Origin: a virus
Virus record (IMG/VR): IMGVR_UViG_3300001748_000018
Location: 1 to 28,774 of that record
DNA: 28,774 bases
Reading direction: 5' to 3' (one strand)
The first letter of the stretch is position 1; every line of letters starts with the position of its first letter. Below are positions 2,584 to 28,727 of this stretch, piece by piece. Made by a program: the position numbers and the translations under genes. The notes under the pieces are model-generated. The model made no database searches. It worked only from the letters and a program-made list of their open reading frames with translations, and was not told the DNA's origin.

Positions 2584-3188
2584 AAAATTTTATTGAAGAT
2601 TTAGATGTTAAGGGCCACCTTCAGATCACTAAAGTTTTTACTAATGGTCGTCAAGAGATTGTTTTTGATGATCATAACATTATTGTTTCTGGGATGGGTT
2701 TAGGTCTGTCTTACTTGTTTAGCTTATCTGGGTCCCAAGATATTCTTGATTATCAGATAGACCGATTTCAAGTTGGTGTTAGTGGAAGCCCTGCTGCCGA
2801 GGTTAGCTCCACTTACGAATTAGTTGGCCCTTTAAGTTCTACTGAGTATGGAGATAACGCTCTACTTTATGTTGTAGAGGGTTACCACGCTAGAGATTCT
2901 CAGTATTACCAAGGCCCCGAATCTTATGGGTATATCCCCCCACACAAAGTAAGTAAAGTGGGGGAACGCAGTGTTCGCTACACTATTACCTTAGATAAGG
3001 ACTCTTGCAATAGCCTAAACCGCGACGGAACCGATATGGCTCTTAATGAGATAGGATTATTCATGAAAAATCCTTTAGGTAGCAAATTAGCTCTAGATAA
3101 TTCAGTTCTAGTTGCTTATAGATATTTTTCAGGAATAGAAAAAACTGAAGACTTTTCTCTAGTTTTTAGATGGACAATTAACTGGTAA
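2580..3188 (+). CDS. Virion structural protein of unknown function, paralogue of the previous gene
   Basis: A 202-residue protein whose ATG overlaps the preceding stop (ATGA, 2580-2583), with GGAG a few bases upstream, indicating translational coupling. The N-terminus has a beta hairpin-like unit (LQITKVFTNGRQEIVFDDHN) followed by IIVSGMGLGLSYLFS. The C-terminus reads VLVAYRYFSGIEKTEDFSLV and closes FRWTINW, a pattern I associate with structural proteins of T4-like phages. The protein aligns by eye with both ends of its upstream neighbour but lacks that protein's longer middle. No catalytic residues, signal peptide or transmembrane segment are visible. Context (fibre genes before and very large structural genes after) suggests a tail or baseplate accessory component. 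Confidence 0.78.
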   Translation: MKNFIEDLDVKGHLQITKVFTNGRQEIVFDDHNIIVSGMGLGLSYLFSLSGSQDILDYQIDRFQVGVSGSPAAEVSSTYELVGPLSSTEYGDNALLYVVEGYHARDSQYYQGPESYGYIPPHKVSKVGERSVRYTITLDKDSCNSLNRDGTDMALNEIGLFMKNPLGSKLALDNSVLVAYRYFSGIEKTEDFSLVFRWTINW

Positions 3189-3192
3189 TATT

Positions 3193-6693: not shown

Positions 6694-6694
6694 T

Positions 6695-9112: not shown

Positions 9113-11751
9113 CCCAGTATTTCCCATGTGGTAACGAATATAGGCCAGGGTATAAGCCAATACCCTTCCCTAAAAGGAAGCCTCCTGGGGGTGGTGGAGA
9201 TTTAATCGGAGCTGTAGATCCTATAACTCCTCCAATTATTATACCTCCGTATACTCCTATTGATCCTTTTCCTAGGGACCCGGGGCCAGGAAGTCCGGGA
9301 CTTCCTTCTGTCCCTAATCCAGGCAATGCCTACTACTTTAGGTATCGGTGCCTAGAAACACCTATTTACTGTCCTGATAATCGAACTATTAGAACTTACG
9401 TTAAGACATGTGACTCAATTAGATTGACTGAGTTTCCTCCGTCTCTTGCTGTGAGGCAGGCTTACCCTCATGATAATATAGCGAAGTGTAGAGCTGTTTG
9501 TGGTCCTTCATCGCCTAGTGCATGTCCCCCCGTCGTCATTTCTGGTCCAACCACAGGTGAAGAGCCTCCTAATAGAGAATACGAGCTTTGGAAATGTCAG
9601 GAAACTCCGGTCTACTGCCCTGATAACGAAACAATACAATTTACTAGAAAAAATTGTATATCAATAACGGTTGTTAATTTTCCTCCACCGCCAATAGTTA
9701 TTTTTCAACAATATAGATATAGATCTTTACAGGAATGCCAACCTTGCTGCGTTCCTGACACAGGTTATCGTATTTGTCCCCCAATAACAGGGCAGATTTA
9801 TGATCCTGAACCTCCTAGAGGCGGAAGTAATACTTATGAAGATATAGGTATATCCTTCCCAGATAGATTAATTACTGGTGTAGTTAACCCTATTGCTATT
9901 GAAGGAGGCACTAACTCTAGTAAGCTTATTGACGCTATTAATTTGATGGATGCCGGTAATAGAGAAAACTCTTTCCAAAATGGTCCTAGAATAGGCTCTA
10001 ATGACCCATCAGCAATAATTTATGATCCTGTAAGAAACATTTTTAACTATTCTATTAACAATGGCTTTACAGATAATAATAAATACCTTAATATATTTTC
10101 GAAGAGAATAGCTAGAGAGCTAGATTATATCTTAAAAAATTATAACTCTTCTAACCCATGGAAAGAACGTTATGTTTTCCCTCTAACCTATGACAAAATA
10201 AAAACTAGCTTAAATCCTGAATTTAGAGCTAATTTAGAGAATATTTTAGATGTTGATGGGAGAAAAGTTAATCCTCAATTATTTTTGTATGGTATACAAA
10301 ATCATATACTAAACAACACTATTCATCAACTTGACACCAACTACTTCAGAACCTTATCAATTGCTACCGCATCTAGGGAGCAACTCTCCCTACAAAATTC
10401 TAATCTACAAGGAAATATCCTAGGTATTATGAATTTTGTAAGAAGTAGAATTGTATCGGCTGATCCTAAAAATTATGAAGGCATTAATAAAGCAGAAGTC
10501 GCAAGAATGAGATTTTTGTTAACAGATTTAAATGCAAAAGTAAAAGCTGTTACGACTGCTGAGTCTACCATAACTATACCTTTAGAAGATCCAGGACTAC
10601 CTCTTACGTTAAGCGGTGAAGTTCTTGATCATGTTCCTTTAGGTGATGGTGATGGATATTACTTATACTTAGAAAGCTCCGCAGGAAGTGTTACGTCTGT
10701 CCCTCTAGAGACATCATTAAGCTCTAGCTATTATCTCCCCCTTCAAGATAGAAAAATAGCTTTATCCCTGTTAGGAGAAGCACCTGAGCTTTCTTTTACA
10801 GTTTCATCTAGCTTTATAAATTCAGAGTTATCTTCCGGTTATCAGGAAGTTTATACTGTAGAGCCTCAATACTTTAAGCTTGAGCTTTCATCAATAAAGA
10901 ATAATCTAAAACCAGGTAAATTTATAAATCAAGTGGAGGCGCGGTATACCAAACTAACTGATTTAGATGAGATTACGCAGCATTCAAAAAATTATGGAGC
11001 TAAGGCTACTAAATTAAACGTCCCTTATGCCGACCCTTTTTATCAATATGCAGATCGAGAGGGGACGTTGAGTCTAGCTATGAATGAAATTACCTACCAG
11101 GAAACTGATATAAATGAAACACCTAATAGGGGATTTATCATCTTAAGAAGCCTTCCTGATGCCATAATTTTATATCCTGCAAAGACAACTGAAGAAAATC
11201 CTTTCAACGCGGCCTCCAAAATTACTTATATAACAGATAGTCATGTTGTCAGAAACTTTAAAGCTACATCAAATATAGGGCTAACCACAGAAAGTTCTAT
11301 AAACAGAAACTCGCTACCCTACAAGTATACTTATGATTACTTAGGGACGTTTAAGTATGGTATCGAAGGCATAGTTGAAACAGAAAATTTAGTATACGTC
11401 TACGAACCCAGTAGCTTCCCAGTATCTTACGAAGTGTCTGGTCGGTCGGGTATCGGTCATGCTGTCTATAATATACTTGAAAATACAATAGATAAAAAAT
11501 ATACATACACGTATATTACTTGGTGGGATTTATTTAGACGAATGACTCTAAAAGATTTATTAAACTTTTATCATTCAGCTCCTAATTTTCTTTTACAACA
11601 AATGCAGTCAGGTTGGAGGGGTTATACGTTTAAGCATGTTCTGTATAGAGGGAAGAATTATACTTTAACAAATCTTACAGAAGTTGATCCCAACATAGTA
11701 GATTCTGTGATTCTAACGGAAACTTTCGATAGATCTCTACAAAACTATTAA
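9109..11751 (+). CDS. Large structural protein with proline-rich N-terminus and two tandem six-cysteine domains
   Basis: An 880-residue protein, start overlapping the preceding stop. Residues 12-72 are rich in Pro and Gly (PFPKRKPPGGGG; PPIIIPPYTPIDPFP). Two homologous cysteine-rich units follow: cysteines at 81, 88, 101, 127, 131 and 139, and at 163, 170, 183, 210, 214 and 223, the second with an extra Cys213. Both share C-x6-C-P-D-N and end in a C-x3-C pair, which suggests disulfide-stabilised small domains exposed on the virion. The remaining 640 residues are AT-rich in sequence, with mixed alpha/beta character, and show no family I can name. The C-terminus has a Trp/Phe-rich helix (WWDLFRRMTLKDLLNF). 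It is the last gene of the fibre/tail block, followed by a short gap holding a late promoter. Confidence 0.76.
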   Translation: MTQYFPCGNEYRPGYKPIPFPKRKPPGGGGDLIGAVDPITPPIIIPPYTPIDPFPRDPGPGSPGLPSVPNPGNAYYFRYRCLETPIYCPDNRTIRTYVKTCDSIRLTEFPPSLAVRQAYPHDNIAKCRAVCGPSSPSACPPVVISGPTTGEEPPNREYELWKCQETPVYCPDNETIQFTRKNCISITVVNFPPPPIVIFQQYRYRSLQECQPCCVPDTGYRICPPITGQIYDPEPPRGGSNTYEDIGISFPDRLITGVVNPIAIEGGTNSSKLIDAINLMDAGNRENSFQNGPRIGSNDPSAIIYDPVRNIFNYSINNGFTDNNKYLNIFSKRIARELDYILKNYNSSNPWKERYVFPLTYDKIKTSLNPEFRANLENILDVDGRKVNPQLFLYGIQNHILNNTIHQLDTNYFRTLSIATASREQLSLQNSNLQGNILGIMNFVRSRIVSADPKNYEGINKAEVARMRFLLTDLNAKVKAVTTAESTITIPLEDPGLPLTLSGEVLDHVPLGDGDGYYLYLESSAGSVTSVPLETSLSSSYYLPLQDRKIALSLLGEAPELSFTVSSSFINSELSSGYQEVYTVEPQYFKLELSSIKNNLKPGKFINQVEARYTKLTDLDEITQHSKNYGAKATKLNVPYADPFYQYADREGTLSLAMNEITYQETDINETPNRGFIILRSLPDAIILYPAKTTEENPFNAASKITYITDSHVVRNFKATSNIGLTTESSINRNSLPYKYTYDYLGTFKYGIEGIVETENLVYVYEPSSFPVSYEVSGRSGIGHAVYNILENTIDKKYTYTYITWWDLFRRMTLKDLLNFYHSAPNFLLQQMQSGWRGYTFKHVLYRGKNYTLTNLTEVDPNIVDSVILTETFDRSLQNY

Positions 11752-12649: not shown

Positions 12650-13078
12650 ATGACAACACTAAGAAGAGTAGTTTTAGAACAGGATGGCAAACCCTATCTG
12701 AAAGGCAATGCAGAAGAACAAGCTAAGAGAGCAAAGATTCTCGCAGCAACACAAAAAGTTAAAGCAGAGAGAAATGCGAGAGCCGCTAAGACCGGAGGTT
12801 CTGGGACCTCAAGACCTGGATACTCTTCTGTTTCTGATAGCATTGTTCCTCTAACTGCCGACCGCGTTAATGAGATGAAAAGACAGCCCGGGACTGGCCC
12901 ACACACCCCCTCAAGCGATCGCCCAGGCTTCATGAAGAGACAACTAGAGGCCGGGAAAAATAAGCCAGCACCAAAAGAGAAGAAGCCTTTTACTCCTGGT
13001 AATGTAAAGAGACGCGATGGGTCAAGCACTACTACAGACCAATTTGGTTCAAAAACTGAGTGGGGTCCTACAAGATGA
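12650..13078 (+). CDS. Basic, disordered small protein with capsid-targeting-like N-terminus
   Basis: A 142-residue protein with a strong ribosome-binding site (AAAGGA at 12637-12642, inside the end of the previous gene). It is rich in Lys, Arg, Pro, Gly and Ser and looks disordered apart from a charged helix at residues 20-46. Its first residues, MTTLRRVVLE|QD, resemble the short capsid-targeting sequences of T4 internal proteins, which end in a hydrophobic-x-Glu site cut by the gp21 protease; the neighbouring genes show the same pattern. I infer a packaged internal head protein, but the motif is short and could occur by chance. No known family is recognised. The gene ends in ATGA overlapping the next start. 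Confidence 0.7.
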   Translation: MTTLRRVVLEQDGKPYLKGNAEEQAKRAKILAATQKVKAERNARAAKTGGSGTSRPGYSSVSDSIVPLTADRVNEMKRQPGTGPHTPSSDRPGFMKRQLEAGKNKPAPKEKKPFTPGNVKRRDGSSTTTDQFGSKTEWGPTR

Positions 13079-13575
13079 AATTACTAACAAGACTTAACGA
13101 GAAGTCCCGCTGCTGGAAAGGCTACAAGCCTACTCCAGGGAAAAAGGCTTATACCAAAGATTCATGTATGAAAGAAGCTGTTCAACTTAAGGGCGGACAG
13201 AAGAAGATCGACAAGAACAAGAATGGTAAACTTGATAAGCATGATTTCATGATTCTTCGTGGAGAACACGGCCCAAAAAAAGCTGAAGGCGTTGACGAGG
13301 GTTCCCCCGCTTGGCAACGCAAGGCAGGCAAAAATCCAGAAGGGGGACTGAACGCTAAAGGTGTCGCATCATACCGTGCTGCTAATCCTGGCTCAAAGCT
13401 CAAGACAGCAGTCACAACCAAACCATCTAAATTGAAGAAGGGATCAAAGTCGGCCAAGCGACGTAAGTCTTTCTGTGCTCGCATGAGCGGCATGAAGAAG
13501 AAGCTTACTGGAGCAAAGACTAAGAGTGATCCTGATTCAAGAATTAACAAATCTTTGCGGAAGTGGAACTGCTGA
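13075..13575 (+). CDS. Basic phage protein with CWKGYK motif, EF-hand-like loop and conserved FCARM...RKWNC tail
   Basis: I choose the ATG at 13075 (ATGA overlap with the previous stop) over an in-frame GTG at 13060, giving 166 residues. The N-terminus MKLLTRLNE|KS resembles a capsid-targeting sequence. It is followed by SRCWKGYKPTPGKKAYTKDS, a motif I know from many environmental phage proteins. Next, DKNKNGKLDKHDF at about residues 44-56 matches the Asp-x-Asn-x-Asn-Gly spacing of a calcium-binding EF-hand/dockerin loop. The C-terminal half carries AWQRKAGKNPEGGLNAKG and the widespread phage motif KSFCARMSGMKKK ... DPDSRINKSLRKWNC, probably a DUF6321-like family. The protein is strongly basic, consistent with nucleic-acid contact. 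A role as an internal capsid protein or head-associated DNA-binding protein is inferred from charge and position. Confidence 0.78.
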   Translation: MKLLTRLNEKSRCWKGYKPTPGKKAYTKDSCMKEAVQLKGGQKKIDKNKNGKLDKHDFMILRGEHGPKKAEGVDEGSPAWQRKAGKNPEGGLNAKGVASYRAANPGSKLKTAVTTKPSKLKKGSKSAKRRKSFCARMSGMKKKLTGAKTKSDPDSRINKSLRKWNC

Positions 13576-13980: not shown

Positions 13981-15084
13981 ATGCTACTAAAAGAAGTAAG
14001 AGTTCTAACTGATTTGCAGGTTATTTCTGAATCTCGTGAAACAGGAATCATGTGTATTCGAGGCACATTCCAGCGCGCAGAAGAAGAAAACCACAACAGA
14101 AGAGTTTATCCTAAAGCAGTCCTAGAAAACTGCGTAAAGAGTTTAAATGAAAAGCTCAAAGGCAGAGAACTCGTTGGTGAACTCGACCACCCTGCTGATG
14201 GTGTGGTCAAGCTTCAAAACGCTTCTCACCTAATCACTAAACTCGAATGGCAGGGCAACGACTTAATCGGTGAAGCAGAAATCCTCCCAACCCCAGCAGG
14301 CCAAATCGCAAAAAGCCTCATTAATGCAGGCGTAAAGATTGGTATCTCAAGCCGTGGTATGGGCACTCTTTCGGAGGCATCAGAAGGCGCTAAGATCGTC
14401 AACGATGATTACAAGATGATTACGTTCGATCTTGTTGCTGATCCGTCAACTAAGGGAGCATATCCTTCGCTGGCAGAGTCAAAGCAGCACGCTCTTGATT
14501 TCGTAGAGAAGGTCATCAAGCCAGCAATTTCAGAACAAGCTTTCGTTGCTCGTCTAAAGAAGAAACTAGACGAGGCTAAGAAGCCTAACCCGTGGGCCGT
14601 TTGTCACTCTAGTGTTGGTCCTAAGAAAACAGAGAAGTTTGAACGTTGTGTCCAGAAGGTAAAGACGAAAGAAGGTATTTCAGAAATGTGTGGTCCAAGC
14701 CACAGCAAGAAGAAGAAACTAAAAGCTATGAAGACTAACGAAGAGTTAGAAACTAAAGGCCCTAAACCGAACCAAGCAGATATGATTCGTAAGGCTGTGA
14801 CAAAGGCAAGGAATCTACAGGCAAGTCCTACCGCAGGGGGTGAAGCCTCTCGCAAACGAGGTCTAGGTGACTATAAATCAATTGGCGCAGAGCTAAGAGC
14901 TAAGGCTCAGGCTGCCAGAGCAGAAAATAGTTCACGCACTCCACTAACTCTTCCTTCTATAATGGAGTTCTTCCAAAAAGGAAAAGACCCGAAAGCTAAG
15001 AAGGTTCCTGTAGAAGGAATCTTTGATAAGAAGAAGAAACTACAAAGCTCTGCGGCAGTAGCCAATCAGAGGGGAGAGTCATAA
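13981..15084 (+). CDS. 21: Prohead (capsid maturation) protease, T4 gp21-like, with C-terminal extension
   Basis: This 367-residue protein is preceded by GAGGA. Residues 1-166 match the T4 gp21 prohead serine protease family: the VGELDHP segment with the catalytic His at 70, and GISSRGMG with the catalytic Ser at 123 or 124, then FDLVADPST with a conserved Asp near 155. In T4 this enzyme sits in the prohead core, cleaves scaffold, capsid and internal proteins after (Leu/Ile)-x-Glu, and then digests itself. T4 gp21 is 212 residues, so about 165 residues are additional here. The extension holds NPWAVCHSSVGPKKTEKFER then CVQKVK at about 203-228, a motif I know from other phage proteins, usually separate. 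Candidate self-cleavage sites LAE166, ISE185 and LDE198 precede it. It is followed by scaffold and capsid genes, the classic order. Confidence 0.9.
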   Translation: MLLKEVRVLTDLQVISESRETGIMCIRGTFQRAEEENHNRRVYPKAVLENCVKSLNEKLKGRELVGELDHPADGVVKLQNASHLITKLEWQGNDLIGEAEILPTPAGQIAKSLINAGVKIGISSRGMGTLSEASEGAKIVNDDYKMITFDLVADPSTKGAYPSLAESKQHALDFVEKVIKPAISEQAFVARLKKKLDEAKKPNPWAVCHSSVGPKKTEKFERCVQKVKTKEGISEMCGPSHSKKKKLKAMKTNEELETKGPKPNQADMIRKAVTKARNLQASPTAGGEASRKRGLGDYKSIGAELRAKAQAARAENSSRTPLTLPSIMEFFQKGKDPKAKKVPVEGIFDKKKKLQSSAAVANQRGES

Positions 15085-15801: not shown

Positions 15802-17487
15802 ATGAGTAATCCACTAGACAATGTAGGTGGCTCCGAAAGATTAACAAACAAATGGGAGCCAGTCCTTGAGGGCATTAACGATAACTATACTCGTAAAGTT
15901 ACCGCAACCCTCCTTGAGAATCAAGCTAAGGCTATTCTGAACGATCGTCAGAAGATGATCTCCGAAGCAGCAGTTGGTGATGGCACCACGACTGTCGGTA
16001 TGCTTGGCACCTTCCAAAAGTTCGCCATGCCTCTCGTCCGTCGCGTTTATCCTAACCTGATCTTCAACCAGCTTGGCGCAACCCAGCCAATGCAAGGTCC
16101 TGTTTCACAGGTCTTCTACCTTGGTCACAACCGTGTTTCTGGTAACGACATCCAGAACATCTATAGCAAGTTCAACCTGACTTACCGTGGTTTTGTTGCT
16201 AGCTCAATCGGATCTGCTTCAGGTGATGGTCTTACTTCCAACACGGGCACTTTCGGCACTGGCGCAGGCGGTGGTTTATTTGAGGGTGATCCTTCATACG
16301 CTAGCGGCTTCGATACCAGCAACGTAATCCGTGATCAGTTTGGCTCCCCTTCAACCACTTTCGGTGGAAGAATTGCTTCTTGGCCTGATGCTCAGACGAC
16401 TCTTGGTTGGACTGTCTCAAGCGGTGAAAGGCTCGCAGGCACCTCAATCCCTGAGATCTCACTGCAAATCCAGACTCAGCCAGTCACGGCTCGCACTCGC
16501 AAGATGCGCGCTCTCTGGACCCTGGAAGCATCACAAGACCTCAAGGCTTACCACAACCTCGATCTTGAGCAAGAACTGACCTCACTCCTGTCAAACGAGC
16601 TTCAGCTTGAAATTGACCGTGAGCTAATCGAAGATATGCGAATGATTGCTTATGGTATGGGAGACAGTGATAAGGGCGCGTTTGGTGGTTGGTATCCAAA
16701 GAGCCTTGATCCTCAGAACACCTCAAACAACTTCCCAAGCTTCCCAGGTAAGGAGCCAGATGGTGCAGCAGCTTTCAGCCCAGGCAGCTTCGAATACGAA
16801 CTGACTCAAGACGGCACAAGCACTGCCCCCAATGGAGTTAATGCTAAGGGCATAAATTCAACGCAAGTTCCTGAACTAAACTCAAACGTTTTTGTTGTCG
16901 ATCTTCGTTACTTTGAGGATGGTATGGGCAACTATGCTCCTCAGCACGTTGGTCACGTTTATGCTAACCTGCTTGCAACGATCAACTTTGCATCACAGGA
17001 TATTTTCCGCACGACCATGCGTGGTCCTGGTAGCTGGCTGGTTACCTCCCCACTAATGGCTGCAATGCTTGAGTCTGCTGCCAAGCTGGAAGGTGGTCTT
17101 TCTCTGGCTGACCGTCCAACTAACATTGGTAACACCTCAATAGAGTTCAAGGGCAAGTTCGCTGGTCGCTATGATCTCTATGTTGATCCAATGTTCCCAA
17201 CCGACGAAATCATGATGGGTTACAAGGGTTCTGGTCCAATGGATTCTGGGTTTATCTACTGCCCATATATCCCACTCCAGCAGCTCCCAACGATCACTGA
17301 TCCTGAAAGCTTCCAACCACGTAAGGGTATTCTTACTCGCTACGGTAAGGTCGCTATTCAGCCAGCCTCACGATTCTTCAGAATCATCAGAGTTGTCGGC
17401 GCTGACAGAAACTTCATTGTTGCGCCAACGCAACGCAATAGATCAGTCCGAGGCAATGATGTCCCAGCAGCTCTCCGTAGCTTCTGA
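15802..17487 (+). CDS. 23: Major capsid protein, T4 gp23-like
   Basis: This 561-residue protein with a GGAGA ribosome-binding site belongs to the T4 gp23 HK97-fold family. The diagnostic N-terminal region is present: a helical propeptide, then MISE|AAVGDG and PLVRRVYPNLIFNQL followed by GATQPMQGPVSQVFYL. I predict maturation after Glu55 (ISE|A), equivalent to the gp21 cut in T4 gp23. Other gp23-like parts include RTRKMRALWTLEASQDL, DLEQELTSLLSNELQLEIDR, and the C-terminal PYIPLQQLP and QPRKGILTRYGK segments. T4 gp23 is 521 residues, so there is about 40 residues of extra sequence, probably in surface loops. The gene is GC-richer and uses more C-ending codons than its neighbours, as expected of the most highly expressed virion gene. 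A strong terminator follows. Confidence 0.96.
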   Translation: MSNPLDNVGGSERLTNKWEPVLEGINDNYTRKVTATLLENQAKAILNDRQKMISEAAVGDGTTTVGMLGTFQKFAMPLVRRVYPNLIFNQLGATQPMQGPVSQVFYLGHNRVSGNDIQNIYSKFNLTYRGFVASSIGSASGDGLTSNTGTFGTGAGGGLFEGDPSYASGFDTSNVIRDQFGSPSTTFGGRIASWPDAQTTLGWTVSSGERLAGTSIPEISLQIQTQPVTARTRKMRALWTLEASQDLKAYHNLDLEQELTSLLSNELQLEIDRELIEDMRMIAYGMGDSDKGAFGGWYPKSLDPQNTSNNFPSFPGKEPDGAAAFSPGSFEYELTQDGTSTAPNGVNAKGINSTQVPELNSNVFVVDLRYFEDGMGNYAPQHVGHVYANLLATINFASQDIFRTTMRGPGSWLVTSPLMAAMLESAAKLEGGLSLADRPTNIGNTSIEFKGKFAGRYDLYVDPMFPTDEIMMGYKGSGPMDSGFIYCPYIPLQQLPTITDPESFQPRKGILTRYGKVAIQPASRFFRIIRVVGADRNFIVAPTQRNRSVRGNDVPAALRSF

Positions 17488-17812: not shown

Positions 17813-18676
17813 ATGGTAGTAAAACCTAATGTAGTTTGGGGCAACACTTACGGAGAGTCTAACGGTAGTAGACTCACTGATTACACTCCAAAGGATGATA
17901 TAGGAGCTAACCTATATGCTCCTGCTGCTTCATATGAAACAGACGCCACAGAGCTTAGTCCTTTTTACAGAGAGATTTACGACTTCATTATGGCTAGATT
18001 AGGTCATCCTGTCGTGCGTGTCGAGTTAACTCCCTATCAAGTAAAGACAGCAATTGAAGAAGCTGTTCAGAGGATGAGCTATCACGCTCCTGTATGGACA
18101 AAACAATATGCTGTATTTCAAACACAAATAGGCGAAAATGTCTATGAGCTTCCACAATTCATTGCAGATAATCTCACTTATGTCATCTACAAAAAAACTC
18201 TCTTGTCCATTCAAGCTCAAGCTGGCACTCTGGAGTTTGATTATTTCATTAAGTATTTCCAAGACTCTCATTTGTTTTCAGATTTTTCTGTAGGAGAATT
18301 TTATATCCTACAAATGCACTTAGAGATGGTTAGGAAAATCCTATCGCAGGAGGGCTCCTGGGATGTATTAAATGGCCGCTTCTTACAGGTGACCCCAACC
18401 CCAGTAGTAGATGACTATTGCATCTTAGAGTATAGAGCTTTAGATAGTAATACTATTCATTATGCTTATAAGTCTTGGATAAAAAGATTTGCTTTAGCTT
18501 GTTCTAAAGAAATTCTAGGTCAGATCCGTGGAAAATATAAGACTCTTCCTGGGCCAGGAGGAGGAGCACAACTAAATGGTGAAATGTTATCACAACAAGC
18601 TATCCAAGAAAAGGAAGCTTTAGTTCAAGAACTATTAACTGAGCTTGAAGAACCTCCTCTAATCACAACGTTCTAA
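17813..18676 (+). CDS. 13: Neck (head completion) protein, T4 gp13-like
   Basis: A 287-residue protein, ATG one base after the previous stop, with AAGAGG at about 17799-17804 as ribosome-binding site. The C-terminus is characteristic of gp13-like neck proteins: GQIRGKYKTLPGPGGGAQLN then GEMLSQQAIQEKEALVQELL. The central segment has conserved helices (YREIYDFIMARLGHPVVRVE, LTPYQVKTAIEEAVQRMSYH). In T4, gp13 and gp14 form the neck that joins the packaged head to the tail; T4 gp13 has 309 residues, similar in size. Its place after the capsid gene and before the giant gene with a gp15-like end keeps the T4 order 13-(14)-15. Confidence is good on the family, less on the exact equivalence. Confidence 0.82.
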   Translation: MVVKPNVVWGNTYGESNGSRLTDYTPKDDIGANLYAPAASYETDATELSPFYREIYDFIMARLGHPVVRVELTPYQVKTAIEEAVQRMSYHAPVWTKQYAVFQTQIGENVYELPQFIADNLTYVIYKKTLLSIQAQAGTLEFDYFIKYFQDSHLFSDFSVGEFYILQMHLEMVRKILSQEGSWDVLNGRFLQVTPTPVVDDYCILEYRALDSNTIHYAYKSWIKRFALACSKEILGQIRGKYKTLPGPGGGAQLNGEMLSQQAIQEKEALVQELLTELEEPPLITTF

Positions 18677-18677
18677 G

Positions 18678-21600
18678 ATGACTGATCCTATCCCTATTCC
18701 TCCTGTAGAAATTTTTGAGAGTGGAAGAACCAACCATGATGACGGTATTTTAGGTTCCGGGGATATCTATAGCACTGTTAAAGTAATTAACTTAACTCCC
18801 CACGAAACTACAGAAATTAAGACTGCTGTAATTACATTAAACAAAGACGCATTTATAGTTACACAGCCAGGAAATCAGGCACCATCAATATCAGTTTCTT
18901 CTATTTATGGAGAGTATCAGTATGTTCAATGGGAGCCAATGGGAGATTTATATCCCCCAACTGAAGGCGTAAGTCCTCTTGGGTCGTATAAACATCTAAG
19001 AGTTAAATGGGATTGTAGAGTGCCTGCGGGAAGGGACGACAATAATTACGCAGTTAATGGAAGCATACCTGGTCCATATGCTCACTATGCGGAAATTCTA
19101 TACAACTTTGTTGCTGCGGAGCCTCTGAACACACCAACATTCACTTTAACTGATGCTGTTCGCACTGCTCTTGAGGGTAATGATCGAGTTAAGTTTCAGT
19201 TTTCCGCACATGGGTATGTAAACGAGTTCGATTTTCTGAATGGATTGTATGGACAAGACAAGCAAAACGACCATCCAAATGGAGCCTCCCTGATCCCAGC
19301 ATTCAGAGATATTATTTATAATGACCTATTCGAGCAAGTAGGTTCAGTAAATGATCCTCCGACTATCGCAGGAGCCGAAGTCTGTTTAGCGAAAGAGTAT
19401 GAACTTCACGGAAGAATAGTCCCAGAATTAGATAATAGTGTTGCACATTTCGATTCAGAGACTTGGGATAGCTCAGGTAATGATGCTCCGCCCTTTTGGT
19501 ATCATTTCCATTATGAACTTCAGCATAATAAAAATATTATTCCATTCACCTTTATTTGGGGTGTTGGGATGGTTAACTATGACGAAGGAACATATGACCC
19601 AGAAGGAAAAGATATTGATGAGCAAGACCAAAGAATTAATAAAATATCATCAAATCATGGCCCTAGACGAAGAAGTGATTCTTATTTAGATTATTTATCC
19701 TCAATTCCTAGAATGAAAACGAGTGAGATCAGAGCTACACCAAATAACTATTACTCAAATGACGACGTAACATTCTCAGTTGTAGGTCCCGAAGTCGTTT
19801 GCCATGCCTCTTCAGTCAATGTATGTGCTGTTTATTCAGACTCATTTAATGGAAAAGATAGAACTACATTGAATTGGTTCGATAAAGCTAATGCTTCTTT
19901 TTATGATATAAATGTATTTGGAATTAATAATCTACCGTCACTGACTGCGTGGGTTCTTAGAGGCTGTATAGTTTTAAATGAATCATACACTCCAGTAAAT
20001 TTAACTCCTTTAGATCAAAGTGCTCAAAGATCTATTCGTAAAGAGAGGACCTGGGCGATAGATCAAAATTTTTATGAACGTAAACTTTTTGGAGCACAAA
20101 AATACCCAATAACGAGACCCCCAGAAGAATTCCTAAGAAAGAATGGTTTTGATAACGCTTATCAAACCGCTTGCCATATGATGTATACTTTATGGGAATC
20201 CCCAATAAAAAAGACACTCAGCCACCCTCTATGGCCTACAACTCTTAGGAATACAGTGCCTACCACAGTAACTGGTTGGGACACCCCTGCTGGGTCTGAG
20301 GGAACTTATTTTACTGTTACGATACCTCCTGAGTGGCAAAATCCTTATCAAGGTATAACTGAAATAGCTCGTAGGGAAGATAATCCATTCCTAAAGAATC
20401 TAAGAGAGCCTTGGGCAATGAACCCTATTGGTCTTGCTAACAGACCTGGAGTTGTAGGTGGTCAACCTGGATTCGCTAACGTTGGAGGAGCAGGAGTAAA
20501 TGCCTCAATTGGATTACCCGATATGAGAGCTTACGAAGCTTGTATTGATTTGGAATGGGGTAGTAGACTATTTATTGAGACAGATAGAGATGGTAGCTTA
20601 TTAGATCAATTTAGAGATAGGTGGTTAGTTAATAGATTTATTCCTAACTTTTCTAATAATAAAATCTCAAATATTAACCTGGAAAACGTAGGAAAAGTAA
20701 TTACAGGCGATCAGAATTACACTTGGAGAAATAAAGGATTTGATTCTTTAGAGTTCTCTGGTCTCGATAACATTATTAATTCTAATTCTATTTTTTGTTA
20801 CTATGGGACTAATCCAACCTTTACTGGTTCTTCTAATAAGAATTTTTCAAGAGGATTCCCTAGAAATCAAATAACAAATGAAGCTTCTGGCCTTAATCCA
20901 AAAAAAGAATCTGTCGGTTACGTTTTAGGTTTAGGAACCTTATCGACATCAAGCATTCCTGGTTATAATGCTGATGGTAGCGAAAAGAGAGGAGGGTATA
21001 GATTTAATTATTATAACCCTTCAGCAACTATGAAGCCTTTCGGTTTTCCTGGGTCCAAGCACCAATACCGCACAGGATACCCGTCTGGCGATAAATACGG
21101 TTTTGGGTCGGACAAGAAGCAAAGCTTCACTAACTCTCACGCTGCTTTCGCATTACAACAATCCTATGCTATAGCTAGCGGAGATAAAGTAACCTTAAAG
21201 TTAATTGATTATTATATTAGATGTTTGTTGTGCTCTCACGACCATAATGAAGCAGATAGAACTCTATTCACTAACAAACAGCTATACCCAGAGGGTCAAG
21301 CATATAAAAACGTAGGACGAATGGAAGGTCGTCCCCTACAAGGTATTGTGGGAGGTATAGCTATTACTAGAGATTCTAACTTAAGGGAAAGAGCAATCTA
21401 CTCCTTAGCTAGGAGGTTTTGGAGTAACGTTTATATTGCAAACTGGGAAGATTATCCTTATGGGGTTCCTGGTAAACCTTGGAGACCCATAACTTATCCT
21501 GCTTGGTCATTTGATGGTAATTATATTACTGTAGATCAAAATAAAATTCCTTATAGCACTAATACCTTATCAGGGGTGACTTTAATTCGAGAGAGATCTT

Positions 21601-24600
21601 TTGATGATCATTATGTTGACTTATATTTAGGGCTTCGAGGAGATTTATACTTTAAAAAGTATTTACCCTCTAGAATTCCTATCAAAGATCTGTATCCAAA
21701 TTACAATAGAAATAACTCCGCTTCTTGGAATGCTTTCTCTGTTGATGGCGCTAACACTTCTGATCAAGCAGTATTTTGCGATCCTTATTTCTTATTAGAA
21801 CAAAGTAGCCAAGGAGATTTTGAAGCCCCAGGAATTGTGAATTACCCAGATGGCACCTCTCAAACACAACAAGTCATTTATCGACACTATAACTTAGGAT
21901 ACTTAGGTCACCCTCTTGAACAAAGTTATGCGATACCTCCAAGATTAAATTCTCAGCCAGAAGGAGTGACAGTTAACGCAATCCCAGGAACTAGGATGAC
22001 TGTTCCTGGGGATGTGGCAGAGACTCGTTTAAGGCAATGGAAAGCGGTTGGATCAAATGCAATCAGGTATAAACGACAAGATAGATATTATTCTCAAGGC
22101 TATCAACAAGGATTGTTATATCCTTACATATCTCCTGCTCTAGATTACTTTTATAACTATGCAAAGATATATGAAGCTAGAGCACAGCAAAATCAAACTC
22201 CTGAATTCTTAAATAAATTTGGGACCTATGAATTATTATCAGCAGAATATCTAGATGCTTGGGAAGAAATTAAACAATATTTTATTAGAGCATCAAAATC
22301 CTTAATTCAAAATTGTCTAGTTAGATATAGAGCCCCAGACTTCCCAGAAATTGATGGTTTATATGGTCTGTCTTACTTCATAACTGCTTACTCTTTTTTA
22401 CATCCATTAGAGAATATAAGAGATCAAGAGCAGATTATTGACATTAACCCAGACGGGTCTGTAAGACAGGAGTCCGTTCCGTTTGCTGGAAATCTAGGAT
22501 TAAACTCTGGCGAAAGTTGGCCGGTCACCCCAGGAATCCCAGGATTACTTAGTCTTCAACAATGCAAGAACGGATCATTAACCTACCAACATGACACATT
22601 ACGACTATACAGCAAACACGGGCTCGCTGGATTTATAGGATTATACGCAGCTTCGATAATGCCTAGGAGACCTAATCCTTGCAATCCAGCGAATACAATT
22701 GCTAGTGAGATTGTCGAAGGTAATTATGGGACAAAGATTTGGGCCGGTATCGCTTTTGAGTGGGCTTGGGATATATTAAAAACTTACGGTGATCCAGCCG
22801 ACACTGAAGTCAGCCGTCTTTTAGAGAAATGTAGGTCTTTCATTCAAGGAATGTTAGGCACAGAAAAATATAACTTCGATAGAGATATTAGAGACGGGAC
22901 AGGCCAACCAGCTAGCGTAGAGGCAGCTTTCTATAAGAGAAATTTTGGTTATTTGGGATGGCCCTCTCCAGGGAATAATCCTAATTTTGAAGGAAATGAA
23001 TATTTAGGTCACAACGAATTCTACCCAAACTTAGATGGCGCAGGTAATGATCATTGGAAAGATCGTAGTTTAGATAAAATATTTATTGATGATTTAAGAT
23101 TATCAATGAGTTTATCCAGTAATATTGAGTTCACTCTAATCTCTAATTATTCCTTTATCTACCTTAATCCCTTATTAAGTGGTGCTGCTTCATTCAACAC
23201 TACCTTAACATCGTTTCCAACTTTTATAAATGCTTCAGTTCGAGATTATGGAAATGACTCAATCTCTATTGTAAGCGGGATCACTGAGGTAGATACAAGG
23301 AAATATTTAGAATGTGATTTATTTAATAATCCGACGCTAGGTTTATCAGCTAATATTAATAATTTTACAGTAACATCGGTAATTAATAGTAAGTTTGACT
23401 ACTCAACACTTTTCTCTATAATTTTTCCAAATACTCTAAACTTAGATGGGGTATACCGAGGTGAGTCTTTATTCTTCACGTATCCGTTTAGTCTGAATTT
23501 ATTACTAGATTCTCTTGTTCAATCTTTCTCTACACAACTTAACGTAAATGAGTTAGATATATTTAAGAAATTAGCAAATGCTAGTATTGAATTTTCTACT
23601 GAATATGATACTACCTTAATTAAATTGCTTGGCCTCAACCCAATTAGTAGTGGGGCTACACAACTAAGCTCTACTATAAACGGTTTCTTTGGTGTAGATG
23701 CTTCTATTTCTGGGTCAACCACTTATGACGTGTTCTCAGTTTTTAGTAATATTCCAATGACTGTGGAGGGGGAGTCGAGATTTAACTCTTTAATCTCTCT
23801 TATTAAGGGTCCTGCTTGGGGTATTTCACAAGGCGGTGAGGACGACGGGTTAGTGAATATCATTGAAGAACCAGCAAGCCAAACGAATATTACTAATGAT
23901 ATATCAGAGGCTATCGCAAGAAGTAATATAATCTATAACAGACCGGCCTATAGATTTGAGCGAGACTTATGGGAAGAACTTACTTTAAAAGTTAAGAGTG
24001 ATGAAAATGTATCTCAGATTTTTAAAGAAACTTTAGAGAGTTTAATAAATATCTTCTCAGATGTTGTTTACATAGACGAAGAGTTTAACACGAAAGAAGT
24101 GCCTTGTTGGGGCGGATCTATGGATAGAGTTGTAGCCAAACTCAAGAAAGAAGCTAATACCATATTGCCTGTAATGTCATTAGTTAGATTATCAAACAAA
24201 ACTGATGAAGATAGACGGAGATATGGCTCTTTAATTGTCTATGAAAAATATTGGGATAAACAAAAAGCTCGTGCGGTAAGAGTGGCAAGCTTACCACCAG
24301 TCCCAGTAAATATATCCTATAGGTTAAGTGTTTGGTCTAAATACCAAGAGGACATGGATCATATTACTGAACAAGTCCATAGAAGATTTAATCCAGATAT
24401 TGAAATCTATACTAAATATAATTCTACTACAAAAGCTTATTTAGTTCAAGAATCCTCTGAACCCCCAGCTAAATTAGCTGATGGAGAGAATAGAGTTATT
24501 CGAAAAACATTCGAAATAGAAGTTCAATCTTTTATTCCTAGTCCTAAGTTTATGTTAACTAACACTGGAAAGATTGAGAAGCTTAATGCGGAAGTCTGTA

Positions 24601-24626
24601 TCCCAATAAATAAGAGTAACCGATGA
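18678..24626 (+). CDS. Giant neck-position fusion: glycan-enzyme-like body plus C-terminal gp15-like tail-completion domain
   Basis: A single intact frame of 1982 residues, start one base after the upstream stop, with no visible ribosome-binding site (probably coupled). Suggested architecture: residues 1-150 beta-rich (TVKVINLTPHETTEI; GSYKHLRVKWDCRVPAG); about 150-500 beta sandwich-like; about 810-1430 helical and reminiscent of an (alpha/alpha)6 toroid, with SHAAFALQQSYAIASGD at 820-836 and GRMEGRPLQGIVGGIAI at 880-896; about 1470-1720 beta repeats with SGxxS-type turns; about 1750-1982 a region resembling T4 gp15, the tail-completion and sheath-stabiliser protein (VPCWGGSMDRVVAKL, ILPVMSLVRLS, RVASLPPVPVNISYRLSVWS, EQVHRRFNPDIEIY). 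T4 gp15 has 272 residues. The body recalls exo-rhamnogalacturonan lyase-like proteins, but this is tentative and no catalytic residues are assigned. Gene order (after gp13) supports the gp15 call. Confidence 0.8.
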   Translation: MTDPIPIPPVEIFESGRTNHDDGILGSGDIYSTVKVINLTPHETTEIKTAVITLNKDAFIVTQPGNQAPSISVSSIYGEYQYVQWEPMGDLYPPTEGVSPLGSYKHLRVKWDCRVPAGRDDNNYAVNGSIPGPYAHYAEILYNFVAAEPLNTPTFTLTDAVRTALEGNDRVKFQFSAHGYVNEFDFLNGLYGQDKQNDHPNGASLIPAFRDIIYNDLFEQVGSVNDPPTIAGAEVCLAKEYELHGRIVPELDNSVAHFDSETWDSSGNDAPPFWYHFHYELQHNKNIIPFTFIWGVGMVNYDEGTYDPEGKDIDEQDQRINKISSNHGPRRRSDSYLDYLSSIPRMKTSEIRATPNNYYSNDDVTFSVVGPEVVCHASSVNVCAVYSDSFNGKDRTTLNWFDKANASFYDINVFGINNLPSLTAWVLRGCIVLNESYTPVNLTPLDQSAQRSIRKERTWAIDQNFYERKLFGAQKYPITRPPEEFLRKNGFDNAYQTACHMMYTLWESPIKKTLSHPLWPTTLRNTVPTTVTGWDTPAGSEGTYFTVTIPPEWQNPYQGITEIARREDNPFLKNLREPWAMNPIGLANRPGVVGGQPGFANVGGAGVNASIGLPDMRAYEACIDLEWGSRLFIETDRDGSLLDQFRDRWLVNRFIPNFSNNKISNINLENVGKVITGDQNYTWRNKGFDSLEFSGLDNIINSNSIFCYYGTNPTFTGSSNKNFSRGFPRNQITNEASGLNPKKESVGYVLGLGTLSTSSIPGYNADGSEKRGGYRFNYYNPSATMKPFGFPGSKHQYRTGYPSGDKYGFGSDKKQSFTNSHAAFALQQSYAIASGDKVTLKLIDYYIRCLLCSHDHNEADRTLFTNKQLYPEGQAYKNVGRMEGRPLQGIVGGIAITRDSNLRERAIYSLARRFWSNVYIANWEDYPYGVPGKPWRPITYPAWSFDGNYITVDQNKIPYSTNTLSGVTLIRERSFDDHYVDLYLGLRGDLYFKKYLPSRIPIKDLYPNYNRNNSASWNAFSVDGANTSDQAVFCDPYFLLEQSSQGDFEAPGIVNYPDGTSQTQQVIYRHYNLGYLGHPLEQSYAIPPRLNSQPEGVTVNAIPGTRMTVPGDVAETRLRQWKAVGSNAIRYKRQDRYYSQGYQQGLLYPYISPALDYFYNYAKIYEARAQQNQTPEFLNKFGTYELLSAEYLDAWEEIKQYFIRASKSLIQNCLVRYRAPDFPEIDGLYGLSYFITAYSFLHPLENIRDQEQIIDINPDGSVRQESVPFAGNLGLNSGESWPVTPGIPGLLSLQQCKNGSLTYQHDTLRLYSKHGLAGFIGLYAASIMPRRPNPCNPANTIASEIVEGNYGTKIWAGIAFEWAWDILKTYGDPADTEVSRLLEKCRSFIQGMLGTEKYNFDRDIRDGTGQPASVEAAFYKRNFGYLGWPSPGNNPNFEGNEYLGHNEFYPNLDGAGNDHWKDRSLDKIFIDDLRLSMSLSSNIEFTLISNYSFIYLNPLLSGAASFNTTLTSFPTFINASVRDYGNDSISIVSGITEVDTRKYLECDLFNNPTLGLSANINNFTVTSVINSKFDYSTLFSIIFPNTLNLDGVYRGESLFFTYPFSLNLLLDSLVQSFSTQLNVNELDIFKKLANASIEFSTEYDTTLIKLLGLNPISSGATQLSSTINGFFGVDASISGSTTYDVFSVFSNIPMTVEGESRFNSLISLIKGPAWGISQGGEDDGLVNIIEEPASQTNITNDISEAIARSNIIYNRPAYRFERDLWEELTLKVKSDENVSQIFKETLESLINIFSDVVYIDEEFNTKEVPCWGGSMDRVVAKLKKEANTILPVMSLVRLSNKTDEDRRRYGSLIVYEKYWDKQKARAVRVASLPPVPVNISYRLSVWSKYQEDMDHITEQVHRRFNPDIEIYTKYNSTTKAYLVQESSEPPAKLADGENRVIRKTFEIEVQSFIPSPKFMLTNTGKIEKLNAEVCIPINKSNR

Positions 24627-25207
24627 AAACAAGATATCTAGCAGAAGCTGAACTGTCATTACTTAATGGAAACACATCAAATGTTTATTTGTTGGATGTA
24701 ACCACTAACCCTGCTTACCAGATAGGTTTGCTATCAGCCTTACCTACAAACTTTAACTCTGGGGCGGGAGATAACTGGAAGGGGGCTAGAGAGCTATACT
24801 CCTTAGGAGTATACTCACATCCTGATACTCTTGTTCAATTTAATGGAATTAATCATAATAATTTTGGTTCTCAAACACCTCATGGGTATTCCTCTAGACC
24901 CTTCTTCAAATCAAGTATAAGTCAAGCTTCTTTAACCTACAATAACACCCTAGGTGTTAGCGGCATGGGAATTCAATTTAACTCAGAAATTATATTTGAC
25001 GAAGCTAAACAAAATTGGGGAACAATTAGAGGCATTGTTGTTTACGGAGTTAGATTTGTAGATCAACAATTAAGAATAACCCCTCTTATGGTCTCAGAAC
25101 TGATAACCCCCGTAGTCATCAACACTGGGCAGAGATTCAAGATTCCAAATACGAATTCATCTAGGATAAGATTCATAGAACTTACTCGGATGTTACCTCT
25201 TACCTGA
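24623..25207 (+). CDS. Small beta-rich tail or neck protein of unknown function
   Basis: A 194-residue protein with start overlapping the preceding stop (ATGA). It has the layout of a broad family of small phage beta proteins: an IGLLSALPT segment, an aromatic middle, a segment IIFDEAKQNWGTIRGIVVYG, then VINTGQRFKIPN and a closing strand. The same succession is visible in the gene at 25274 (YVGLLSGIPT, VVIDFPTLPGES, GGDTIRINAQGFTI), so the two may be diverged relatives. Such proteins decorate capsids or tails in other phages, but the precise function here is not known. Position between the tail-completion protein and the sheath suggests a neck or tail accessory protein. Confidence 0.72.
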   Translation: MKTRYLAEAELSLLNGNTSNVYLLDVTTNPAYQIGLLSALPTNFNSGAGDNWKGARELYSLGVYSHPDTLVQFNGINHNNFGSQTPHGYSSRPFFKSSISQASLTYNNTLGVSGMGIQFNSEIIFDEAKQNWGTIRGIVVYGVRFVDQQLRITPLMVSELITPVVINTGQRFKIPNTNSSRIRFIELTRMLPLT

Positions 25208-25273: not shown

Positions 25274-25762
25274 ATGGCAAATTACGTAGGCAAAACAAAA
25301 GAGTTTGCAGAAGAAATTATAAATTATTACATAAATAAAAGTTCAATGCCTGACCCAGAACAACTTTATGTAGGCTTATTAAGTGGGATTCCCACTCCAG
25401 GGAACGCAGAACCCTACGACGCTTCAGCAGTAAGAGCTAAAGAGGTATCCGCTGGAGCCTTTAGAGTAGCTTTACCTGCGGCTGTTAATTTTACTACCGA
25501 AAAGTCTGTAGCCCTTAGTGCTGTAACAGCCACAAACAACCTTGGAGTTGTTATTGATTTCCCAACATTGCCAGGAGAATCTACTGATTTAGTAGAAGTC
25601 TCTGGGTATGCCTTAATTCGTGGGTCTAGCAATCAAGATACTAGTGCATACGTGGGATATGAAGTCTTCGCTGCTCCTGGTAATTTAAACAAGCAAAGGC
25701 TGGGTAGAGGTGGAGATACCATTCGTATTAATGCACAAGGGTTCACTATACTGGAGAAGTGA
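25274..25762 (+). CDS. Small beta-rich virion protein upstream of the sheath gene
   Basis: A 162-residue protein with a strong ribosome-binding site (AAGGAG). After an N-terminal helix (KEFAEEIINYYINK) come LYVGLLSGIPTPG, EVSAGAFRVALP, a strand VVIDFPTLPGES, VSGYALIRG and RGGDTIRINAQGFTI. This order of motifs is typical of a widespread type of small phage beta-sandwich protein found near capsid or tail genes; I do not assign a named family. It is the first gene of the sheath-tube unit, so it should be made at high level, suggesting a stoichiometric virion component, such as a decoration or tail-tip-ring protein. This is an inference. Confidence 0.74.
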   Translation: MANYVGKTKEFAEEIINYYINKSSMPDPEQLYVGLLSGIPTPGNAEPYDASAVRAKEVSAGAFRVALPAAVNFTTEKSVALSAVTATNNLGVVIDFPTLPGESTDLVEVSGYALIRGSSNQDTSAYVGYEVFAAPGNLNKQRLGRGGDTIRINAQGFTILEK

Positions 25763-25944: not shown

Positions 25945-28122
25945 ATGGTAAATATTCTAAGTCCTGGTGTTTACGTAATTGAGAAGGATATTTCTAATTA
26001 TCCTGCAACCCTTAACTCAACAACTGTTGGGGTGGTGGGATTTTCCGCAAAGGGGCCGACTAACAAGCCTACTTTAATCACTAGTCAAGAAAGCTTAATC
26101 AGAACTTTCGGGGAGCCCGATGAGAATCTTCCGGGGCAAGGAATCGTTGGGGCATTAGAAATTCTAGAAGCGACTAATAGCATGTATTTCGTGCGAGTAG
26201 TAGATCAATCTGCTCAGAAGGCAACCGCAACACTAAGTTTCGGTAACTGCCCCGCAGCCGCGGTTAGTTCTTGTGGCATCGGAGTTACAAGATCTGCTGA
26301 GTTTTCAGTGCAAGTTTACGATAATAATGGTATAGCTAAATTCAATTCTCGTAGATTTTTCTCTGTCCCAATTGGAACAGCCGCAACACAGGCTGCGGCT
26401 TTGGTTAAAGTCTTTGGTAGCGATTTAGATGGTCTGGACCTTTTCGCTACTTATGAATACAGTGAAGGAGCGGATGGAAGTAAAACTCCTATAAATAATA
26501 CCTTAGGCTTTACCACTGTTGCTAGCGTCGGAACTTACCAAGGCTACCTTGTAGGTTCTTACGCAGGATCAGGAGCTTACATTGATGTGTCTGCTTCGAT
26601 CCCTGTTCTCAACTCAATAAACCATCTAGGCGACGTTACTGTTATAGTTTCTGGAGGGGTGAGTGCTACCAAGGGAAGCACACCTGAGGGTCTCTCCGAG
26701 TTTTTAGGTTCTGGGATAACCTACGAAGTATTTAAACCTCAAGATACCACTATCGCAAGATCTTTAAGTCTTGGTAATGTCAACTATAAGATTGAAGCCT
26801 TATACCCAGGAGGAGGATACAATCTAAGCACGTTATCTAATGGATCTATTGTAGGAAACTCAGTAGAAGTTGACAACAAAGGCGGTGATAAGTTTAATGT
26901 TACTATAAACAATAATGGTGCATTAGAAGAGCAGTTTAGAGCAACGTTAAATACTAAATACCATCTAACAGAGGTTGTAGGAGCCACGCTAGAAACAACA
27001 ACTTCAGATTATATTATAGGCAATGTTTATAGAAATGGAACTTTAATAGATCTCAATGCTGTAGAGAGTTATCCAAGATCAGCTAGCTCCTTATTTGCAG
27101 GCAGTGTTTCAGGCACGGCTGTAGTGTCTGAAACTGGTTATTGGTTAGCTTCAGGAGTTATGAATCCTCGATTTGTTAAACTCATCGAAGCGACAAAAAA
27201 CCTCACCGGCGGTAGCAATGGAAATACCTCTAACTATCAAGATGATATTATCGGAAACGTCTATAACAGAACTGGTATCTATGCCTTAGATGATGATCAA
27301 TTAAACGTAACGATTGGTATAGTTCCTGGTCTTCATGAGCAATCAATTCAGAATGCTCTTGTCACTCTGGCTGAAACTAGCCAAAACTTCGTTGCCTGTA
27401 TATCTCCCCCGTATGGTGTAGACACCGTTCAAGAAGCAATTGATTGGTCAAACGGTTTCTCTGATTCAAGAAAGGCTGCAATCAACTCTTCTTATGGCGC
27501 TCTATACTGGCCTTGGGTTAAGACCTATGTCCCTCTTACTCAAAAAGATGTATGGATTGATCCTGCTGTGTATGGAGCTAGACAAATAGCTTATACTGCC
27601 GGGACAGCAGAGCTTTGGTTCGCCCCAGCCGGTTTTGTTAGAGGTCGTCTTACTAAGCCTCTAGAAACTCAGGTTAAGCTTAATCAAGGTGACAGAGATT
27701 CTATGTATAGTGGAGGTAACATTGTTAACCCAATTGTTAACTTCCCACAACAGGGAATCACTATCTTCGGCCAAAGAACTACACAAAGAGATCCAACGGC
27801 TCTAGACAGAGTTAACGTTAGAATGCTTCTAATCTACATTAGAAAAGTTTTACTGCTATCAACTCAAAGATTCGCCTTTGAGCCAAATGACGAGATCCTT
27901 TGGGGTCAGATCGTGTCTGTCGTTGAACCTCTCCTTGATGACATCAAGAGACGAAGAGGTATTACTGAGTTTGCAGTAATCTGTGACTCAACTACTAACA
28001 CTCCTCTGAGAGTTGATCGTAATGAAGTTTGGTGTAAGATTCTTCTGAAACCAACGAAAGCAGCAGAAGCTGTTGTATTTGAAATCAATGTGACTTCACA
28101 GTCAGCACAGATTGCAGGCTAA
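25945..28122 (+). CDS. 18: Contractile tail sheath protein, T4 gp18-like
   Basis: A 725-residue protein starting one base after the previous stop. The N-terminus has the family signature (LSPGVYVIEKDISNYPATLN, then VGVVGFSAKGPTNKPTLI and TFGEP). The C-terminal part contains GLHEQSIQNALVTLAE, FVRGRLTKPLETQVKLNQGD, the segment INPIVNFP-like NIVNPIVNFPQQGITIFGQR, and LIYIRKVLLLSTQRFAFEPN, followed by the final domain that links subunits in the sheath. Residues about 100-390 carry an insertion-type domain, probably exposed on the outside. Sheath protein polymerises around the tail tube and contracts during infection. T4 gp18 has 659 residues, so this one is somewhat longer. The tube gene follows directly. 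Confidence 0.97.
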   Translation: MVNILSPGVYVIEKDISNYPATLNSTTVGVVGFSAKGPTNKPTLITSQESLIRTFGEPDENLPGQGIVGALEILEATNSMYFVRVVDQSAQKATATLSFGNCPAAAVSSCGIGVTRSAEFSVQVYDNNGIAKFNSRRFFSVPIGTAATQAAALVKVFGSDLDGLDLFATYEYSEGADGSKTPINNTLGFTTVASVGTYQGYLVGSYAGSGAYIDVSASIPVLNSINHLGDVTVIVSGGVSATKGSTPEGLSEFLGSGITYEVFKPQDTTIARSLSLGNVNYKIEALYPGGGYNLSTLSNGSIVGNSVEVDNKGGDKFNVTINNNGALEEQFRATLNTKYHLTEVVGATLETTTSDYIIGNVYRNGTLIDLNAVESYPRSASSLFAGSVSGTAVVSETGYWLASGVMNPRFVKLIEATKNLTGGSNGNTSNYQDDIIGNVYNRTGIYALDDDQLNVTIGIVPGLHEQSIQNALVTLAETSQNFVACISPPYGVDTVQEAIDWSNGFSDSRKAAINSSYGALYWPWVKTYVPLTQKDVWIDPAVYGARQIAYTAGTAELWFAPAGFVRGRLTKPLETQVKLNQGDRDSMYSGGNIVNPIVNFPQQGITIFGQRTTQRDPTALDRVNVRMLLIYIRKVLLLSTQRFAFEPNDEILWGQIVSVVEPLLDDIKRRRGITEFAVICDSTTNTPLRVDRNEVWCKILLKPTKAAEAVVFEINVTSQSAQIAG

Positions 28123-28133
28123 GGAGCTAAATA

Positions 28134-28727
28134 ATGGCATATAATTCTTACTTTAAAACTCTCTATGGTCGTGAGTTTGTTGCAGGGCAAGGTTTACCTG
28201 TAATTTCTACTGAGCTTGATTCAGTAAGAACCTATCAGTTTGAGATTCAATTTGAAGGTCTTCCTTTAAGTAGACTCTCAAACGCTCAAGATCTGACCTT
28301 AGCAGCCAAGCAAGTGTCTAATGCAGGTATGAAGGTGGAGGATATCAAAGTAAATCGCCTCAACGACACGATTTACTACCCAGGACAAGGAAGCCCCGAA
28401 GGAGAGCTTCAAGTTACGTTCGATCACTTATACCTGAAGCAGACTGCTCCGACCTTGTGGGACTGGTTTAAAAGTGTTTACAACCCTCTCACAGGCGACT
28501 CAGTGGAGAACTCCAGGCCGGGAGGCACCAATAGCCCACACTTTAAGGCAAATAAACTTTCTGTTGTTTATCTAGATAACAAGAAAGTCCCATTTGAAGT
28601 TATTGAGTATTACGGAGTTTATCCAAAATCTTGGACGCCAGCCGAGGTGAATTACGGAACTAGTGAGTTCCACACAATCACGGTTAACTTCCGTTATGAT
28701 CTTATGGATGTTAAGAGAGCCCGCTGA
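28134..28727 (+). CDS. 19: Tail tube protein, T4 gp19-like
   Basis: A 197-residue protein with a good GGAG ribosome-binding site (28123-28126). Conserved tube-family segments are visible: YQFEIQFEGLP near the start, AAKQVSNAGMKVEDIKVNRL and TIYYPGQGSPEGELQVTFDH in the middle, and WDWFKSVYNPLTG. The C-terminal VIEYYGVYPKSWTPAEVNYG and TITVNFRYDLMDV complete the pattern. The protein forms stacked hexamer rings of the rigid inner tube through which DNA passes. T4 gp19 has 163 residues. The order sheath-tube is that of T4 and most myoviruses, and both share one transcription unit ending in the following hairpin. Confidence 0.96.
   Translation: MAYNSYFKTLYGREFVAGQGLPVISTELDSVRTYQFEIQFEGLPLSRLSNAQDLTLAAKQVSNAGMKVEDIKVNRLNDTIYYPGQGSPEGELQVTFDHLYLKQTAPTLWDWFKSVYNPLTGDSVENSRPGGTNSPHFKANKLSVVYLDNKKVPFEVIEYYGVYPKSWTPAEVNYGTSEFHTITVNFRYDLMDVKRAR

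Follow-up and report, generated by a model that had tools for sequence, protein, structure and literature searches.

A T4-type tail terminator domain fused to a giant N-terminal body in uncultivated T4-like phages

Tail terminators are among the most conserved and most compact parts of contractile phages. The window analysed here, an entire 28,774-base IMG/VR record that represents an incomplete fragment of a larger viral genome, comes from an uncultivated, T4-like phage and encodes a giant protein with gp15-like features at its C-terminus (Table 1). Is this C-terminus a genuine tail terminator, is the fusion real, and what might a body of this size do at the neck of the phage? The giant open reading frame is intact, and its ATG start lies 1 base past the stop codon of the gp13-like gene.

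Table 1. Positions in the window of the giant protein, its parts and the neighbouring head, neck and tail genes.
Feature	Coordinates	Strand	Match or remark
Prohead protease, gp21-type	13981-15084		Peptidase_S77
Major capsid protein (gp23)	15802..17487	+	PF07068, E 2.4e-76
gp13-like neck protein (head-tail adaptor Ad2)	17813..18676	+	phrog_211, E 7.5e-21
Giant gp15 fusion protein, 1982 aa, 223.6 kDa	18678..24626	+	
Body, conserved N-terminal part, residues 1-760	18678..20957	+	
Body, middle part, residues 784-1480	21027..23117	+	
Variable low-complexity linker or stalk, residues 1480-1740	23115..23897	+	
gp15 tail terminator domain, residues 1744-1976	23907..24605	+	
194-aa gene	24623..25207	+	seen only beside type A giants
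162-aa gene	25274..25762	+	seen only beside type A giants; weak Gp80 fibre match
Tail sheath protein (gp18-like)	25945..28122	+	phrog_23, E 1.4e-72
Tail tube protein (gp19-like)	28134..28727	+	phrog_4542, E 1.6e-9

Upstream of the head genes (positions 3193-11751), the window encodes three large proteins of 1166, 805 and 880 aa without a convincing family match, the 880-aa protein combining Cys-rich repeats (YCPDN..C) with proline-rich linkers. The head gene cluster also contains a 171-aa protein (13060-13575) that matches DUF6321 with 70 bits and has a weak, below-cut-off EF-hand-like match.

Several comparisons identify the C-terminal domain. The Pfam family PF16724 (T4-gp15_tss) matches residues 1780-1969 with 47.8 bits, exceeding the cut-off of 25 (E 1.4e-12), and the PHROG family phrog_227 (tail sheath stabilizer) matches with E 7e-12. 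A 15-member profile of the domain retrieves T4 gp15 from the PDB (E 5e-8), and its alignment by hhalign to seven isolate gp15s, from T-even, RB49, Acinetobacter, cyano- and rhizobial phages, reaches 98.7% (E 3.7e-16, 189 columns) with a score of 113, compared with at most 24 for 100 column-shuffled controls. The gene order fits as well, since the giant follows gp13 and precedes the sheath and tube genes just as T4 gp15 does. On the strength of these profile matches, the C-terminus of the giant is a genuine T4 gp15 (tail terminator or sheath stabiliser) domain; the original prediction of a gp15-type domain of ~230 residues behind a very large body is thereby confirmed, with the motifs it named falling inside the domain and ~1740 residues preceding it in the same intact frame. 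These additional N-terminal residues set the giant apart from T4 gp15: at 1982 aa it is not a stand-alone protein of the usual size (about 220-460 aa; the isolate gp15s inspected have about 260-457 aa). It is the only gp15 in the 28,774-base record, itself a partial genome, and no second gp15 was found in longer giant-bearing contigs of 59.7 and 76.7 kb.

Scanning the viral collection with the giant as the sole query sequence was too strict and gave no relatives; these were instead reached via gp13 and gp23, all of them from other metagenomic contigs. Giants of the same kind as that of the window, referred to as type A, have 2005 aa (L002 and L010), 2172 aa (L009), 2797 aa (L013) and 2807 aa (L005 and L006), and share the gene order major capsid protein, small open reading frame, gp13, giant gp15, two small genes, sheath and tube. 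Two pairs, L002 with L010 and L005 with L006, are nearly the same sequence recovered from separate metagenomes, which speaks against a chimeric assembly. Because the fusion recurs in independent assemblies, an assembly chimera or frameshift was rejected as its source. The type A fusion is thus conserved in at least four other phages. Close body-free sister phages exist alongside (L003, L004, L007, L008 and L012); their gp13 is 77-90% identical, their gp15 is a stand-alone protein of 224-259 aa, and both small genes are missing. In the window, the 162-aa small gene matches the Gp80 fibre family with 24 bits, below the cut-off of 27, and the L005 homologue of the 194-aa gene likewise matches this family (PF23140, Gp80 fibre protein) weakly, with a score under the cut-off.

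The body falls into parts that are conserved to different degrees. Residues 1-760 share 61% identity with L002 and 46-48% with L005, L009 and L013, which is similar to the conservation of the gp15 domain (60% and 52-55%), and residues 784-1480 share 47% with L002 and 30-34% with the others. The linker contains G-x-[ST]-x-hydrophobic repeats; at this position L005 and L013 carry an inserted DUF4832-type stretch (47.5 bits in L005, cut-off 29.2), and L005, L009 and L013 contain a further insert immediately before the middle part of the body. Across 604 body codons, the dN/dS ratio between L101 and L009 is 0.165, indicating that these codons are under purifying selection. In the comparison of L101 and L102 with L009, dS for L101 versus L009 is 0.37 in the body and 0.05 in the gp15 domain, a contrast that suggests recombination swapping bodies while the anchor stays.

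The first 1740 residues have no convincing match in Pfam, PHROGs, NCBIfam or the PDB, where profile searches with parts of the body gave nothing or chance matches. The body was not found in bacterial genomes, plasmids or isolate phages; neither the type A body of the window nor the type B body of L161 (see below) matches any of 50,697 isolate phage records. AlphaFold2 models of residues 1-1198 and 784-1982, built from five-sequence alignments, were unusable (pLDDT 28 and 31), probably owing to the shallow sequence depth. The motifs YVQWEPMG...GSYKYLRVKWD and GRMEGRPLQG..ITRD prompted the idea of a PcRGLX/YetA-type (PL26 rhamnogalacturonan lyase-like) body, which was rejected: PF19501 gave no match at E 10, and hhalign against an alignment of 18 bacterial members collected via PF19501 gave at most 1%.

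The type A body is one of several. In a survey of gp15 open reading frames in the fetched loci that counted N-terminal extensions of at least 300 residues, such extensions occur in several unrelated sequence groups. Type B bodies share common repeated units (L124, L128, L151/L142, L153/L158 and L160/L161); domains that score above their cut-offs are fn3 in L151/L142 and choice-of-anchor Q in L158. The largest type B protein, that of L226, has 3281 aa and is flanked by gp13 and a gp14-like gene upstream and the sheath gene downstream. In the 721-aa giant of L011, the body includes a BD-FAE-type alpha/beta-hydrolase that scores 29.6 bits, above the cut-off of 26.8, and has the nucleophile elbow GRSGG. 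The 907-aa giant of L082 has a body of its own, unrelated to the others. Altogether, the fusions measure 721 to 3281 aa, with bodies of ~480 to ~3050 residues, some of which look like adhesive modules or ones that act on sugars. In a tree built from 85 gp15 domains, a sample that is biased to window-like sequences and whose frequencies are not estimates for all phages, parsimony places 7 changes of the giant state, at least 4 of which are forced by well-supported branches. Judged from this tree and from the differing bodies, the gain of different bodies on gp15 has been recurrent and modular, and the fusion, first taken for a single oddity, instead belongs to a recurrent architecture. A keyword search of the open-access literature turned up no description of a terminator fused in this way, which is not proof of novelty.

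The survey also brought up other unusual neck and tail loci. Three phages have two tandem gp15 genes (L018, 5054-6511; L040, 5059-6516; L085, 3638-5058), the second copies of which branch beside the window clade on the tree with weak support. In L107 (1810-5136), L109 (2548-5874) and L051 (7455-10304), the gp15 domain is N-terminal and followed by C-terminal extensions of 694-871 residues without a PHROG match, so that gp15 is extended at either end, depending on the phage; a sheath fusion was discarded for the extensions of L051 and L107, as they showed no sheath similarity. A giant neck-region protein also occurs unfused, as a 1514-aa open reading frame (L044, 5200-9744) that follows a stand-alone gp15 and precedes the sheath gene, and L158 encodes a second large neck-locus protein of 980 aa (1680-4622) between the gp14-like gene and its giant gp15. 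Tail-tube-like genes form a tandem pair in L129, L130 and L132, the second being about 320 aa long, and the 1080-aa tail sheath of L029 (14130-17372) and L030 (4342-7584) exceeds that of its relatives by about 350-390 residues.

How could such a protein be arranged in the virion? The last sheath row of T4 bears a six-fold ring of gp15 (PMC3004832). By homology and gene order, the gp15 domain of the giant would still form a hexameric ring that closes the sheath at its top. A body of ~195 kDa per subunit is too big for the tail lumen, and on these steric grounds the six bodies would lie around the outside of the ring, forming a collar or neck appendages, so that the collar-like display around the neck that was originally proposed is possible. 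Six copies of the giant would weigh 1.34 MDa for the window and 1.9 MDa for L005. The variable residues 1480-1740 may serve as a flexible stalk linking body and ring, and the bodies would bind or act on the host surface, most likely on glycans, thereby concentrating or orienting the phage or clearing polysaccharide ahead of baseplate engagement. We favour, with moderate confidence, the reading that the giant is a gp15 terminator with a displayed N-terminal module, six copies of which form a neck collar directed at the host surface and probably at glycans. Several observations favour a host-surface role: the bodies are diverse and have modular inserts, one and the same type of anchor bears hydrolase, DUF4832, fn3 and choice-of-anchor Q domains, and fibritin is lacking. 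The link to glycans, the most likely target, is drawn by analogy from other bodies on the gp15 anchor and not from the window's own body.

The nearest functional parallel appears to be the neck passage structure (NPS) of lactococcal 936 phages, in which a constant anchor, a conserved N-terminal stretch of ~180 residues, is combined with parts that vary and are carbohydrate-binding or pectin-, alginate- or esterase-like, and for which one neck module has been shown to bind cells (PMC6669499). Both systems would place swappable modules on a neck anchor; the likeness is functional only, and no kinship is claimed. In contrast with the giants, the 936 phages are siphophages with another tail type, and their NPS, with ~500-900 residues, is a protein on its own rather than a terminator fusion.

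A purely structural role, in which the body forms a collar or sheath-top reinforcement that replaces the fibritin collar, stiffens the neck or docks tail fibres and has no activity on the host surface, is a less probable alternative. The collar and whiskers of T4 are made by fibritin (wac), the product of a separate gene and a trimeric coiled coil, in the same neck region as the proposed collar of the giant; a loop of fibritin contacts gp15 (PMC3004832). The Fibritin_C foldon (PF07921) is absent in the window and related contigs (RB49, the control, was found at 6e-32), i.e. no canonical T4 collar protein is seen in these contigs, and this absence fits a structural replacement, as do the weak matches to a phage fibre family seen for the two small genes next to the giant. 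Phage 7-7-1 provides a precedent for a large external assembly round the neck of a contractile phage, and this collar has no known enzymatic function (PMC12796354); it consists of a separate protein, gp118, in stacked 15-subunit rings and is not part of the terminator (PMC12796354). What speaks against a structural collar is that the identity of the body changes fully between lineages, even to a hydrolase with a nucleophile elbow, and that the wide range of body lengths is typical of surface-interaction modules and not of a fitted scaffold.

If the body were cleaved off while the virion assembles or later, perhaps by the prohead protease, a normal gp15 would be left, and the body would serve as a chaperone of assembly or as a virion protein in its own right. 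A gp21-type protease (Peptidase_S77) is indeed encoded nearby, but sister phages make gp15 without any body, and the covalent linkage has been kept across strongly diverged giants and arose repeatedly; we regard this scenario as improbable.

The original prediction also stated that no gp14-like gene lies between gp13 and the giant, which is true of the window, and that the body may replace gp14. PF11649, the Pfam family of gp14, is absent in the window and its relatives (control: cyanophage S-SCSM2R, found at 1.3e-29). Most of these phages carry a conserved gene of ~190 aa between gp13 and gp15 (u190; 126 open reading frames), which hhalign aligns to gp14 at 83% (E 9e-6, 135 columns) with a score of 44, compared with at most 29 in 200 shuffles; from this profile comparison, u190 is a divergent gp14. 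It lies upstream of the giants of L005/L006, L009, L013, L011, L124, L128 and L226, separated from the giant by one small open reading frame in L124 and L226 and directly adjacent elsewhere. It is missing from the giant-bearing window and L002 and equally from all five body-free sisters, so that the absence of gp14 is unrelated to the fusion. A takeover of the gp14 (stopper) function by the body, for which the gap in the window is the argument, is therefore very improbable and in its general form refuted, given the divergent gp14 beside most other giants, its absence in sisters without a body, and a body without any gp14-like region (hhalign 0.23-0.25%). In the subclade comprising the window, L002, L003, L004, L007 and L008, u190 has been lost, moved or replaced.

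In T4, residues 178-256 of gp14 (the C-terminal arm) bind residues 203-245 of gp15 (PMC12270204). The alignment of the gp15 domain to T4-type gp15 stops at about residue 218 of 272, and the window protein terminates shortly beyond, without most of the segment that binds the gp14 arm; u190 is alignable only to about gp14 residue 182, without the corresponding arm. As both alignments end early, the partners of the gp14-gp15 contact both appear to be shortened in this phage group.

Beyond the window, we consider more tentatively that in a large uncultivated group of T4-like phages the tail terminator serves generally as a platform for display, its N-terminus having repeatedly captured unrelated giant enzymatic or adhesive modules. 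The contractile tail would then bear at its head-proximal end a six-fold collar composed of depolymerases or adhesins, a second host-interaction device apart from the baseplate that is absent from cultured phages. A terminator that repeatedly carries bodies up to ten times its own size suggests that the neck, beside the baseplate, is a hot spot of host interaction in environmental phages. The gp15 ring would offer a defined, testable anchor of known stoichiometry for the display of large enzymes on the virion, and the giant bodies are a candidate source of new glycan-active families.
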